DNA of 21,589 bases. It comes from a virus. Shown here one piece after another: positions 17,347 through 21,572 of this stretch. Made by a program: the position numbers and the translations under genes. The stretch is from the IMG/VR virus record IMGVR_UViG_3300020129_000252, positions 1 through 21,589 of that record. One strand, written 5' to 3'. Numbering within the stretch: the stretch's first letter is position 1; each line of letters opens with the position of its first letter. The notes beneath the pieces are model-generated. The model saw nothing but the letters and a program-made list of their open reading frames with translations. It had not been told where the DNA came from and made no database searches.

Positions 17347-17511
17347 CTATGACCGAGCCTCGAGAAGCTGCCCGAGAACGTGCTGCAGCTCGTCGCTCCA
17401 GCCCGCCGCGTCGACATGTCTGGCGAGCAGCAGGACCGCGGTTTCAAGATTCGCCACACGGCGCAGCAGCTCGGCGTGGACCTCGTACGCGTTGCGCTCG
17501 GACAGCGTCAC
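17347..17511 (-). CDS. Small helical protein directly before terminase (54 aa)
   Basis: GTG at 17511 to TAG at 17347 encodes MTLSERNAYEVHAELLRRVA, then a Leu/Ala-rich helix with heptad-like spacing (NLETAVLLLARHV), then DELQHVLGQLLEARS. It fills the gap between the possible small terminase gene and terL with three and four bases on its sides, and its third positions are mostly G or C. This fits a coiled-coil oligomerising peptide. Function unknown; a packaging accessory is conceivable from position. The GTG start and absence of a strong ribosome binding site leave doubt about the exact start. Confidence 0.6.
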   Translation of the reverse strand: MTLSERNAYEVHAELLRRVANLETAVLLLARHVDAAGWSDELQHVLGQLLEARS

Positions 17512-17514
17512 GGC

Positions 17515-17853
17515 TCAGTGTGCGACGCCGTTCGTGAGCGCGTTCGGACGGTCGACGTACTCGATCTCAATGACCTGTCGACCCTCGGACTGGAGCTTCT
17601 CCGCGGACTTGAAACCCGCATAGTCGAGCACGTACCGCGCCGCAGCCAGGTCGTTGTCGGCGATGAGATTCGCGAGTGCGGATACCGCGGGATGCACGAG
17701 TGCTCGCATGCGGTCCTCGGCATTGGCGAGCGCTTGCGGCGACTTGCCGCCGTGCATGCGGCACACCTGCTGGTTGCGCATGGCGGGCACCCGGCATTGT
17801 CGACCGTCGCGGACTCGAGCGTGGCACTGGCGCATGGGGTCGACAACACGCAT
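17515..17853 (-). CDS. Possible terminase small subunit, with Cys/His HGG motif (112 aa)
   Basis: A 112-aa protein starting at the ATG at 17853, four bases after the preceding stop. The N-terminal third has a zinc-like motif, C10, C20, C31 and H34 within CRMHGGKSPQ, followed by the helical part ALANAEDRMRALVHPAVSAL and a region ending IEIEYVDRP. Proteins with this C-x-C-xMHGG opening followed by helices lie just upstream of the large terminase in many phages and are often taken as small subunits or their partners, which recognise phage DNA. Position supports this. A homeobox-like or helix-turn-helix segment is not obvious, so the role is tentative. Confidence 0.55.
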   Translation of the reverse strand: MRVVDPMRQCHARVRDGRQCRVPAMRNQQVCRMHGGKSPQALANAEDRMRALVHPAVSALANLIADNDLAAARYVLDYAGFKSAEKLQSEGRQVIEIEYVDRPNALTNGVAH

Positions 17854-17857
17854 GGGG

Positions 17858-18037
17858 TCAGGACGCTTGCGCTTCGACGGGTTCGGGCTCGTCGGCGCCG
17901 GTCTCGGCGAGCAGCATCAGGCTCTTCCAATCCGAGAGCAAGTGCAGGCCCCAGTGGTGCTCGAGCAGGTTGTCCGAGGCTTCGAGCTCGACGGCCGCGG
18001 CGTGCATCACCACGAGCAACTCAGGCAGATACGTCAT
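17858..18037 (-). CDS. Small hypothetical protein (59 aa)
   Basis: ATG at 18037 (overlapping the previous TGA as ATGA) to TGA at 17858. Sequence starts MTYLPELLVVMHAAAVELEA, continues SDNLLEHHWGLHLLSDWKSL and ends in an acidic Glu/Pro/Ala tail. Mostly amphipathic helix, with a strong excess of GC at third positions. It fills exactly the gap between two genes with tight spacing on both sides, which supports reality despite its small size. Function not recognised. Confidence 0.65.
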   Translation of the reverse strand: MTYLPELLVVMHAAAVELEASDNLLEHHWGLHLLSDWKSLMLLAETGADEPEPVEAQAS

Positions 18038-18231
18038 GCCGATTCGTTCTCCGGCGGGGTAGTTCGGCGCAGTCGTTTCAGGGTTTCCTGCTGGCGCCGG
18101 GCGCAGCGCAGCGAGCAGTACAGGTGCTTGACGACGGCGTGATTCGAGGGCTCATGCCACTCGGTCTCGGGAATCTTTCGGCCACACCCCACGCAGAACT
18201 CGACGGCGCCAGTGTACGGCTCCTGGGTCAC
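18034..18231 (-). CDS. Small zinc-finger protein (65 aa)
   Basis: I chose the GTG at 18231, which overlaps the stop of the replication gene as GTGA; an in-frame ATG five codons earlier lacks a ribosome binding site. The protein has C13-x2-C16 in CVGCGRKIP and C39-x3-C43 in YCSLRCARRQQ, with several histidines in between (H26, H31, H36), which suggests one zinc site of treble-clef type. It ends in a basic, then acidic tail. Small proteins of this kind often bind nucleic acid or a partner protein; the specific role is unknown. It lies between the replication and packaging genes. Confidence 0.7.
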   Translation of the reverse strand: MTQEPYTGAVEFCVGCGRKIPETEWHEPSNHAVVKHLYCSLRCARRQQETLKRLRRTTPPENESA

Positions 18232-18812
18232 GGCACGACCACCCATTCGCGTTTGCCGTTGGCGTCCTGGCGCTGCTCGTACTTCGGCCCGTCGTTCTCA
18301 AACTCGAGCGTCTCGGAAGAATTCCGCCCCCTTCGCTTGCGAGGGGGGTTGGGGGGTGCTCCGGGGATTCCCGTAGGGAATCCGGGACCGGGACCGGGAC
18401 CGGGACCGGGAGCGCCCGGAAGATTTTCGGAATCCGGTGGGGTTCCGGCCGGAATCCGTTGTGAATTCGTGGTCTGCGCGCCGCGGCGTTTGCGGGCGCG
18501 ATCCTCGTCGCGTTGACGCAGCACGGCCTCGCGCGACGGCTGAAATTCCAGGTAGTCGTGGATGTACCAGCCACTGATGTGCTCGGGCGCTTCCCAACGC
18601 CGCGCCGCCACGAGTTGCTGCACGGCCACGTCCCAATTCCGCAGGTGAATCAACGCCCCAATAGCCTGCACGTCCGTCACGCTCAGGTGCCCGTCGCGCA
18701 ACTCGCGTGCGGAGTAGATGATGCCGGCCATGTCCAGCGCAATCGCTTGCGTCGACAAGCCTGCTAATTTCCCATTGCCCAGATAGTCATCTGCGAATCT
18801 TGCCCATGGCAC
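18228..18812 (-). CDS. Winged-helix replication initiation-type protein (194 aa)
   Basis: Starts at GTG 18812, directly after the previous TGA, with AGAAGGA about nine bases upstream. Residues 1-100 match the pattern of phage winged-helix proteins: MPWARFADDYLGNGKLAGLS, then STQAIALDMAGIIYSARELRDG, LSVTDVQAIG and GWYIHDYLEFQPSREAVL. A basic segment (RARKRR) follows, then a Pro/Gly linker (residues 113-157) made of GP repeats, then a basic and acidic tail. Proteins of this build include replisome organisers that bind an origin and recruit replication proteins, and neighbouring RecT-like and nuclease genes fit a replication-recombination module. The linker DNA carries repeated GGAATCCG, as if the origin lay inside the gene. 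A transcription factor role cannot be excluded. Confidence 0.68.
   Translation of the reverse strand: MPWARFADDYLGNGKLAGLSTQAIALDMAGIIYSARELRDGHLSVTDVQAIGALIHLRNWDVAVQQLVAARRWEAPEHISGWYIHDYLEFQPSREAVLRQRDEDRARKRRGAQTTNSQRIPAGTPPDSENLPGAPGPGPGPGPGFPTGIPGAPPNPPRKRRGRNSSETLEFENDGPKYEQRQDANGKREWVVVP
18364..18458. other. Candidate replication origin: iteron-like repeats inside the replication gene
   Basis: GGAATCCG occurs exactly three times at 18377-18384, 18429-18436 and 18451-18458, with an inverted near-copy GGGATTCC at 18364-18371. The last pairs with the first as a perfect hairpin, GGATTCCC (18365-18372) against GGGAATCC (18376-18383), with a three-base loop. The repeats read in three different codon phases of the gene, so they are not simply a repeated peptide. 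Lambda ori lies in the same relative place, inside gene O. No strongly AT-rich melting region is obvious nearby. Confidence 0.4.
18382..18411. repeat. Five tandem CCGGGA hexamers
   Basis: Five uninterrupted copies of CCGGGA (30 bp). On the minus strand they encode the alternating Gly-Pro run of the replication protein linker. Such a repeat is prone to slippage in whole hexamers, which changes linker length without changing frame. Confidence 0.9.
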
Positions 18813-19861: not shown

Positions 19862-20362
19862 GCACTTGCCTCCGATACGAGCAGGTAGCGTCCGAGCGTT
19901 GCCAGACGACGCTGCTCCCGAAAAATATTGACGATATCCGTCGCCAGTGAAGGTCAGGTCGGCTTTGCCTACCACGTCGTCGACACTGTCCATCGAACAC
20001 TGCTGGTACCAACCTGCTTTCGCCACAAGACCGAACGCGTGGTACGTGTCGATCAGCGATGGATAGAAATTGCGTCCGATCTTGGCTTGTACAGCCCCGA
20101 TATACGGCGTGGACGGCCAGCCATCCCATTGGTCAAAGCAGAATTCCGTGAACTCTTGCTGGCTCGGGAGTCGGCCACATGACGCAACCCAGTTATGAAA
20201 TTCGTAAACGACAGGCGTGGGAGTCATTCCGGCCTGATCAGCGAGACCACCCAACCGGGTCAACTCGCGGTTATCCCAGACGCAGGGATGCGTAGTCAGA
20301 AAGTCCTTGATGCCTTCCGGATCAAAGAAGCGAACCAACAGCCTCGCAGTTGTGGTGCCCAT
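19858..20362 (-). CDS. Hypothetical protein with an apparent one-base frameshift near its end
   Basis: The ATG at 20362 overlaps the lysozyme stop (TGATG) and gives MGTTTARLLVRFFDPEGIKD, then a compact, aromatic-rich protein (FHNWVASCGRLPSQQEFTEF; GRNFYPSLIDTYHAFGLVAK). In this frame it continues without stop into the recombinase. If one base is dropped from the run of five T's on the minus strand (A's at 19921-19925), the frame instead continues from GDGYRQYF to REQRRLATLGRYLLVSEASA and stops in an ATGA overlap with the recombinase start, the joining style used throughout this window. The length 505 bp is one more than a multiple of three. A +1 slip by the ribosome would have the same effect. 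Function not recognised. Confidence 0.6.
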
Positions 20363-20808
20363 CAGCAGTACCCCGCAGAAACGGCGACGAACTCGCGGGC
20401 GCGGCCGACGGCGATCATCCAGTTGATGGCCGCGGTGTTGGCAGCGGGATCGAACACCGACAGTCCGGCGCGACCTTGGGGTGTGGATTTCCACGTCCCA
20501 GGTAGAAATTGCCCAAGGCCGCTAGCGCCGGACCGCGGATTCACAGCGTGCGCGTCGCCCCGACTCTCGACGCGAATGATGCAAGCCACTCTGCTCGATG
20601 CGCTGGGCGCCGGTGGTGCATGGGTAGCCGGAGGATCGAGCAGACCCTCAGATGCCAGGTACGCCGCCGGCGCCACGCCCGTGCTGTTGACGGCACCCTG
20701 CAGCGCTACAGGGTCCACACCCACCGACGCGGCAAGCACAGTCGTTTCCTCGTCGGGGTTGACGGCACCCGTGGAAAGCAAGAGCATCGCCGCGGCCAGC
20801 AGCGCCAC
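20362..20808 (-). CDS. Secreted lysozyme/transglycosylase-like muralytic enzyme (148 aa)
   Basis: GTG start at 20808, overlapping the stop of a 28-aa membrane gene (TAGTG). The N-terminus is a hydrophobic segment (ALLAAAMLLLSTGAV), a likely signal peptide or signal anchor. After a Pro/Ala linker (residues about 57-72) comes a lysozyme-fold domain with probable catalytic E81 in IIRVESRGDAHAVNP, then the conserved GASGLGQFLPGTW, FDPAANTAAINWMI and the final YC. With C76 it could form a disulfide outside the membrane. This layout resembles Rpf-like or transglycosylase-like muralytic enzymes found in phages and actinobacteria, which cut the glycan strands of peptidoglycan. It is probably the lysis enzyme of this phage. 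Its place between nuclease and recombinase genes is unusual for a lysis gene. Confidence 0.8.
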   Translation of the reverse strand: MALLAAAMLLLSTGAVNPDEETTVLAASVGVDPVALQGAVNSTGVAPAAYLASEGLLDPPATHAPPAPSASSRVACIIRVESRGDAHAVNPRSGASGLGQFLPGTWKSTPQGRAGLSVFDPAANTAAINWMIAVGRAREFVAVSAGYC

Positions 20809-21084: not shown

Positions 21085-21465
21085 CTAAATCCTCCGTCGC
21101 AAGATGGCGGCGATCACCGGAAGGTCGGCCGGGCGCCACACGTAGACCTCGGCGCACGTCGCGCGCAGGTCCTCGAGCCACTGCTGCTGGTCGACCGTCA
21201 GCCGGCCGCGGGCGTTCTTCAGCTCCGCAAAGATCACGCGATGGCCGCGCACCAGGACCAGGTCGGGGAAACCGGGCACGCTCTTACGCGAGTCGTGCGT
21301 GTGGTAGTGCCGCCAGTTGTAGAGCCGAGCCAGCGCCACGACCTGGTTGAGCAGCACCGCCTCGGGCTGCACCAGTTGGACGACGCGCACGCGCTTGGCC
21401 TGCACTCGTCGCCGCGAGCGGCCGCCGGTCGTGGCGTAGCCCAGACCACGGGTCGCCACGCTCAT
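21085..21465 (-). CDS. VRR-NUC domain nuclease
   Basis: From the ATG at 21465, overlapping a membrane-peptide stop as ATGA, this gives 126 aa. After a basic N-terminus (GGRSRRRVQAKRVRVVQ) comes the VRR-NUC core: E35 in QPEAVLLNQVVALAR, D68 in VPGFPDLVLV, then E81 and K83 in IFAELKNARGRLT and DQQQWLEDLRA with the conserved Gln. It is a PD-(D/E)XK-fold nuclease, metal-dependent, that in phages is thought to resolve branched DNA during replication and packaging. The domain spans nearly the whole protein, and the key residues all appear present. An in-frame extension to 21558 is possible but would run through the upstream gene. Confidence 0.88.
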   Translation of the reverse strand: MSVATRGLGYATTGGRSRRRVQAKRVRVVQLVQPEAVLLNQVVALARLYNWRHYHTHDSRKSVPGFPDLVLVRGHRVIFAELKNARGRLTVDQQQWLEDLRATCAEVYVWRPADLPVIAAILRRRI

Positions 21466-21572
21466 CGGCTGATGAGTCTCCAGACGACCAGCACCAGCCC
21501 GAGCCAGAAGAGCAGGCCCAGGCCGCACGCCAGCCACACGAACAGCGGCGGACGCCACACTGGCTCGTTCAC
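21462..21572 (-). CDS. Small membrane peptide at the right edge (36 aa)
   Basis: GTG at 21572 with an excellent GGAAGGA ribosome binding site six bases upstream; TGA overlaps the VRR-NUC ATG (ATGA). The peptide is MNEPVWRPPLFVWLACGLGL followed by LFWLGLVLVVWRLISR: one transmembrane helix of about 20 residues rich in Leu and Trp, with a basic end pointing inside. Too short for routine gene calling, but its signals are strong. Function unknown. It is the first gene visible in the leftward series; the promoter must lie outside the window. Confidence 0.65.
   Translation of the reverse strand: MNEPVWRPPLFVWLACGLGLLFWLGLVLVVWRLISR

Follow-up and report, generated by a model that had tools for sequence, protein, structure and literature searches.

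In a soil phage known from virus record IMGVR_UViG_3300020129_000252 (IMG/VR; positions 1-21,589, the whole of the DNA analysed here and hereafter called the window), the gene for the replication initiator probably also contains the initiator-binding part of the origin, located in the codons that connect the DNA-binding domain to the C-terminal tail. Origin activity is inferred. A first-pass annotation had proposed such an initiator-origin unit within one gene, and it was supported by PHROG matches, by a winged-helix model of the protein and by co-variation between the repeats and a basic helix, its function being an inference. Origins inside initiator genes are already known from lambda and from pSK41-type plasmids; no described origin of the present type was found for actinobacterial phages in the open-access literature searched. 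An actinobacterial host was inferred for the window from sequence comparison, since homologs of its initiator come from actinobacterial phages and genomes. The initiator and its parts are encoded as follows.

18228-18812, minus strand: replication initiator gene, 194 aa, GTG start (ORF; PHROG 2447/3926, 'replication initiation protein')
18534-18812, minus strand: winged-helix DNA-binding domain, residues 1-93 (AlphaFold2, block means mostly >90; winged-helix structural matches)
18462-18533, minus strand: basic helix, residues 94-117 (..QRDEDRARKRR..), proposed iteron reader (model; more similar helices tend to share more iteron 6-mers)
18234-18284, minus strand: beta-hairpin tail, residues 177-193 (model; tail type common to homologs L014 and L032, whose helix types differ)

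Profile matches extended over residues 1-162 for PHROG 2447 (E = 2e-18) and residues 1-119 for PHROG 3926 (E = 1.2e-11). Together with the confident winged helix over the first 93 residues, they bear out the earlier proposal of an N-terminal DNA-binding initiator domain. Pfam searches gave no family at E <= 0.1, RepA_N (PF06970) included; likewise, no sequence relatives were found in the PDB and no plasmid homologs of the N-domain in our search. The AlphaFold2 model, built with 34 sequences of the protein's own family, placed a disordered linker at residues ~118-171. Its structural matches comprised winged helices of ORC2, Cdc6, MCM8 and plasmid-type initiators, and the fold was not discriminating because unrelated winged-helix proteins matched alongside them. 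Among the matches were 4pql, 4pt7, 4pta and 5kbj (residues 1-86, Z 7.0-7.9, tied with unrelated winged helices), titled initiator or Rep-DNA complex, which we take to be RepA_N N-terminal domains. No helicase match was obtained for the ORFs neighbouring the initiator. Two stretches upstream of it, 21085-21558 and 20362-20808, encoded proteins resembling a VRR-NUC nuclease and a transglycosylase (SLT).

The repeat element of the window comprised the following DNA features.

18451-18458, plus strand: iteron copy GGAATCCG (exact match)
18440-18457, no strand assigned: imperfect palindrome GGGTTCCGG/CCGGAATCC, overlapping an iteron (inverted repeat, 89% complementary)
18429-18436, plus strand: iteron copy GGAATCCG (exact match)
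18382-18411, plus strand: tandem array (CCGGGA)5, i.e. five GGGACC units (TRF; synonymous null p = 0.0004)
18377-18384, plus strand: iteron copy GGAATCCG, shared with the right hairpin arm (exact match)
18365-18383, no strand assigned: hairpin GGATTCCC / GTA / GGGAATCC, perfect 8-bp stem, 3-nt loop (inverted-repeat match)
18343-18356, plus strand: G tracts GGGGGGTTGGGGGG at 18343-18348 and 18351-18356 (sequence; homologs have C tracts at this position)
18327-18347, no strand assigned: GC hairpin CCCCCTTCGC-TT-GCGAGGGGG, one mismatch or bulge (sequence; same 20-mer in the linker of L032)

The three exact copies of GGAATCCG, spanning 82 bp and present nowhere else in the window, had been reported in the first-pass annotation, as had an inverted near-copy (18365-18372) and a perfect 8-bp hairpin with a three-base loop, whose arms bear the iteron core; all were recovered. 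Its reading of the copies in three codon phases was also reproduced on the minus strand (CGG ATT CC, R-I-P; CCG GAT TCC, P-D-S; CCC GGA TTC, P-G-F). The (CCGGGA)5 array, whose G runs are on the gene's template strand, the G tracts and the GC hairpin were absent from that annotation. The 20-mer of the GC hairpin was found in just two viral contigs, one of them carrying the divergent homolog L032, with the 20-mer in its linker. In another viral contig, the same 20-mer CCCCTTCGCTTGCGAGGGGG was located at the end of an unrelated coding sequence (L033, positions 714-733), so the hairpin may in part belong to a widespread type of palindrome. A mobile palindrome was considered and rejected, only two viral contigs containing the 20-mer.

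Taken alone, the window gave moderate support, since the repeats and the array had good p-values once the protein was accounted for and the hairpin was unsurprising; the case became strong when relatives were added. GGAATCCG occurred three times against 0.67 expected, a number reached in 6 of 100 shuffles, and its cluster was one of just two sites in 21.6 kb with at least three dispersed 8-mer copies within ~90 nt. Under a synonymous null, in which the protein was kept constant and synonymous codons were permuted, p was 0.007 for the three 8-mers, 0.002 for four GGATTC/GAATCC sites, 0.0004 for the tandem array and 0.16 for the hairpin alone. When all 8-mer pairs were simply counted per 240 bp, a cruder measure, the dispersed repeats did not stand out in the genome. 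Without a protein null, repetitive tail and structural genes filled the top of genome-wide rankings; with the synonymous null the initiator linker came first or second in several genomes, and did not in four others (G001, G003, G004 and G008). The strongest dispersed-repeat segment of the present record under this null contained a 24-bp tandem repeat at 212-268, of 2.3 copies with 96% matches.

Sequences flanking the iterons were GC-rich (0.66 over 17501-18500) and no AT-rich unwinding region was found near them. The cumulative GC-skew maximum lay near the initiator linker in most of twelve genomes when the gene was left unmasked; with the gene masked, 2 of 10 relatives stayed within 5% of half-genome distance (p = 0.09). 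GC skew, one of the checks named in the first-pass annotation, was dropped as origin evidence because its peak vanished on masking and the maximum was opposite to the usual origin sign.

Homologs were gathered from viral contigs, sampled genomes and cultured phages, and 107-117 initiator genes were compared. Among 395 genomes sampled from the class to which an Actinomadura genome belongs, 33 carried them, in most cases presumably as prophages; they were also carried by cultured phages of Gordonia, Microbacterium, Mycobacterium, Streptomyces, Arthrobacter and Propionibacterium; 415 cultured records matched the initiator domain. A recurring order was observed 3' of the DNA-binding domain, where short iterons were followed by a 5- or 6-bp tandem array, a hairpin and often a C/G tract. 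Homolog L066, for instance, displayed GGATTCCGGC repeats, (CCCGGT)3, the hairpin GGATTCCGGC-TAC-GCCGGAATCC and then CCCCCTACCCCTCCCC. Four homologs with a similar N-domain (L001, L002, L167 and L191) had no clear iterons or array. DUF1376 was not found in the Actinomadura genome and controls, and a synthetic helix query returned no match.

As far as sequence comparison can tell, iterons changed along with the helix behind the winged helix. The comparison involved 107 genes and took as helix the residues after the HDY motif, upstream of the iteron DNA compared. Helix similarity correlated with shared repeated 6-mers over all pairs (r = 0.39) and among pairs below 45% and 35% N-domain identity (r = 0.29 and 0.21, p = 0.0005 each), subsets in which control N-domain DNA gave r about zero (0.00 below 45%). 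Four helix/iteron classes were defined after inspection of ~25 genes and then tested on others: the predicted motif ranked top in 24 of 54 held-out genes (11.4 expected, p = 5e-5) and, among 18 later additions, in 6 (2.8 expected, p = 0.017). Classes C and D performed well among held-out genes, class B mainly in those fetched later, and class A, that of the window, was the poorest of the four. At least two GGANTCC sites were present in 7 of 12 held-out class-A genes against 2 of 68 (p = 8e-6); the N allowed in this motif and the RK register in the helix were set after inspection of the data. The p-values of all these homolog comparisons, here and below, are optimistic because the homologs are related, and the classes were shaped by the first ~25 genes inspected. 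Repeats and a basic helix changing together are what is expected of an initiator and its sites. The first-pass annotation had named, as a refutation, relatives that keep the protein and lose the repeats; L001 and L002 are on the face of it such cases; in the wider set the repeats change with the basic helix.

Other pairings were apparent. For the L026-type initiator, which has an RM helix, GAACGTTC would be the DNA of its class. RQ.RW(L/R) helices formed a further class with AGACGCGTCT-type palindromes (L145, L147, L152, L154, L158, L093, L081 and L087), RK.RW helices (L012, L058, L109 and L161) paired with GGAACG..CGTTCC, and KK.R helices with GGGGAC/GTCCCC.

A broader reading, to which we incline with little assurance, is that actinobacterial phages and prophages share a so far undescribed origin module in which class-specific iterons are combined with a C-run/G-run array of 5-6 bp units and fixed strand polarity and with a hairpin that bears iteron sequence, usually inside coding sequence and outside it when the initiator is truncated. 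The helix behind the winged helix would read the iteron by a simple code (RK-basic/GGANTCC, RM/GAAC..GTTC, RQ..aromatic/GTAACG and AAGxxGG/AGCAAA being proposed examples), and the module would for this reason be swappable between phages.

Co-variation demonstrates a partnership between protein and DNA and not origin activity itself, which leaves room for the iterons to be operators for self-repression of the initiator or for copy-number control, with the true origin elsewhere. Initiator sites of iteron plasmids often double as control sites. Still, we regard this as unlikely, as sites in the middle of a gene or past its stop codon are odd for an operator, and the array and hairpin that often follow them would be left unexplained.

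In the preferred reading, an origin part inside the gene, the element is kept as DNA. Pro-rich low-complexity linkers are common, replication slippage can create tandem arrays and the hairpin of the window was by itself not unexpected given the protein, so a functionless linker drifting neutrally by slippage, with host-type palindromes inserted, had to be weighed. For 72 genes, direct repeats exceeded the synonymous null (p <= 0.05) in 49 linkers and only 8 of the upstream N-domains, inverted repeats in 26 linkers and 6 N-domains. Arrays (period 4, 5 or 6, match run >= 11) were found in 59 of 117 homolog linkers and in 2 of 225 control windows; they were built of differing units and lay at a similar distance, ~197 nt after the HDY motif. 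In 21 of the 59 the period was 5 bp; many arrays had this period within coding sequence, where it runs out of codon phase and cannot give a simple dipeptide repeat in one frame. Four C runs on the coding strand characterised 61 of 107 linkers (14 of 588 controls), and G runs there were rare (3 of 107), making the element strand-polar. Hairpins with a stem of at least 8 bp lay just 3' of the array in 22 of 75 genes, compared with 0.5% of 2443 control windows; in 16 of 33 cases the stem and the gene's own iterons had a 6-mer in common (6.0 expected from the iterons of other genes, p = 0.0004).

The element was also met outside coding sequence. In short initiators ending right after the helix (Anatole, Lang, Dori, L048, L052, L069 and L110), iterons and array lay in non-coding DNA past the stop codon, and repeats were individually significant in 9 of 17 short genes. 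Anatole displayed GAGCAAGCAAACGGGTAAG repeats followed by CCCGTACCCGTACCCGTACCCGTA, L052 displayed GTTCGCCCGAC repeats, and L069 and L110 the GGAATC sites of the window type. These comparisons of DNA with its coding constraint showed that iterons, array and hairpin are kept beyond what the protein requires. Slippage and drift seem very improbable to us, given the identical order of elements in many divergent genes, the regular distance of arrays of differing unit, the C-run strand bias, the non-coding copies and the co-variation with the helix.

A packaging site (pac/cos) might be suspected since, in the window, the large-terminase gene and what may be a small-terminase gene come just downstream of the initiator gene. 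This is barely tenable because phage Appa has its initiator ~23 kb from the terminase, near a DnaB-type helicase, and its linker keeps iterons and array. No more credible is an RNA element, with hairpins and C tracts acting in mRNA (attenuation, translation coupling or antisense control): hairpins are present on the coding strand and antisense RNA control is used by pSK41-type plasmids (PMC5703833), but single-strand folding of the whole stretch was not better than that of shuffles (z = -0.95, DNA parameters), iteron cores occur in both orientations and the co-variation partner is a basic, probably DNA-binding, helix.

If the region is an origin part, replication might be initiated as follows. 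Dimers or higher oligomers of the initiator would contact the GGATTCC iterons with the winged helix and the basic helix DRARKRR. This binding would wrap or strain the DNA, so that the array and the hairpin become single-stranded. Of the two strands, the one with the G runs, which is in every case the gene's template strand, would perhaps fold as a G-quadruplex and leave the C-run strand free; this is only an idea resting on the motif, and no literature joining phage, iterons, G-quadruplex and replication origin was found. Host helicase and primase would then be loaded at the exposed site and theta replication would proceed, the linker peptide having little role beyond that of a flexible spacer. 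Use of the host helicase is likely in ten near-complete relatives, since no recognisable DnaB helicase (DnaB_C) was detected in them; no Prim-Pol was found in ten relatives either. Some distant cultured relatives do carry a helicase next door to the initiator, Appa, Schmidt and NelitzaMV having a DnaB-like helicase or helicase near it. No binding or replication experiment for initiators of this type was found in the literature searched.

In lambda, initiator-bound iterons lie inside gene O, between the DNA-binding N-domain and the C-domain; there are four of ~18-20 bp, accompanied by an AT-rich region, and the helicase loader P is encoded next door. O-type initiators and iterons of lambdoid phages vary together. 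The window resembles lambda in that the initiator gene itself contains repeats, downstream of the part for the DNA-binding domain, binding being inferred. It differs by a core of only 7-8 bp, in three exact copies and one inverted near-copy at uneven spacing, by a second element made of a GC-rich 5-6 bp array and hairpin, and by the lack of both an AT-rich region and a recognised P-like gene in the window. The 'lambda-type' label given earlier was too narrow, there being no AT-rich region and the RepA_N origin of pSK41 being an equally close model. Membership of the lambda or RepA_N family was not shown.

In pSK41, the origin is central in rep and the linker that it encodes is dispensable in trans, while a winged-helix N-terminal domain of ~120 residues binds the Rep boxes (PMC5703833). 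This system (PMC5703833), together with lambda O/ori as known generally, is the closest experimental precedent; the repeat element of the window occupies codons between helix and tail, its origin activity being inferred. In contrast to RepA_N proteins, the window initiator has no PF06970 match and structural matches no better than to other winged helices, its tail is modelled as only a short beta-hairpin instead of the five-helix DnaG-binding domain of pSK41 type, and its sites are GC-rich and without long iterons where RepA_N sites are A+T-rich. In RepA of the V. cholerae PLE satellites, the RepA_N DNA-binding domain and origin iterons co-vary as a swappable module with a shared C-domain (PMC8263062). 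Initiator tails of the present type also occur with different helix and iteron types, but PLE iterons are ~30 bp, semi-palindromic and in a non-coding region. For mycobacteriophages Miko, Rachaly and Jeeves, repA suffices for autonomous replication, in Miko with 171 bp upstream, and an origin upstream of or within repA was suggested, as in lambda (PMC7157519). That RepA is akin to RepA of pMSC262-family plasmids and acts in the prophage state, and no repeats were reported (PMC7157519), in which it differs from the present case.

Because ~100 relatives share the layout with matching variants of protein and DNA, it could now become possible to find and test the origins of many phages of actinobacteria, the anatomy giving a testable position in many laboratory phages. 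The pairing of helix and iteron suggests that initiator specificity is readable from sequence, which bears on which phages and prophages can share replication or interfere in it. Genetics in Gordonia, Microbacterium and Mycobacterium hosts might also gain small candidate replicons, and the window initiator is a gene whose linker follows DNA needs over protein needs.

Several variants of this organization were recorded. HNH-nuclease-like sequence directly followed the winged helix in L155, L156, L157, L160, L166 and L177 (also L054, L104 and L170), and neither iterons nor an array were seen where these normally lie; such proteins are possibly origin-directed nucleases or a different initiator design. 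In the non-coding gap after the short initiators L181, L189, L190 and L186, a motif close to CTTACGTnAGAACcTACTCACCTTTGG was shared beyond the array and was recognisable as ACTACTCACCT / CTCACCTAAG in StorminNorm and RedRaider77 (L179 and L123); Mycobacterium and Gordonia phages may thus have another conserved origin element. L088 and L092 displayed unusually long, 14-bp perfect hairpins right after the array, e.g. CTTCCTTCTCCTTC-AGA-GAAGGAGAAGGAAG, in which purines and pyrimidines were unevenly divided between the strands. One initiator domain was joined to at least five C-terminal tail types unrelated to each other (window 18228-18290 and homolog tails), an identical tail occurring with different helix and iteron types, and some tails were zinc-ribbon-like (CPLC...DH).
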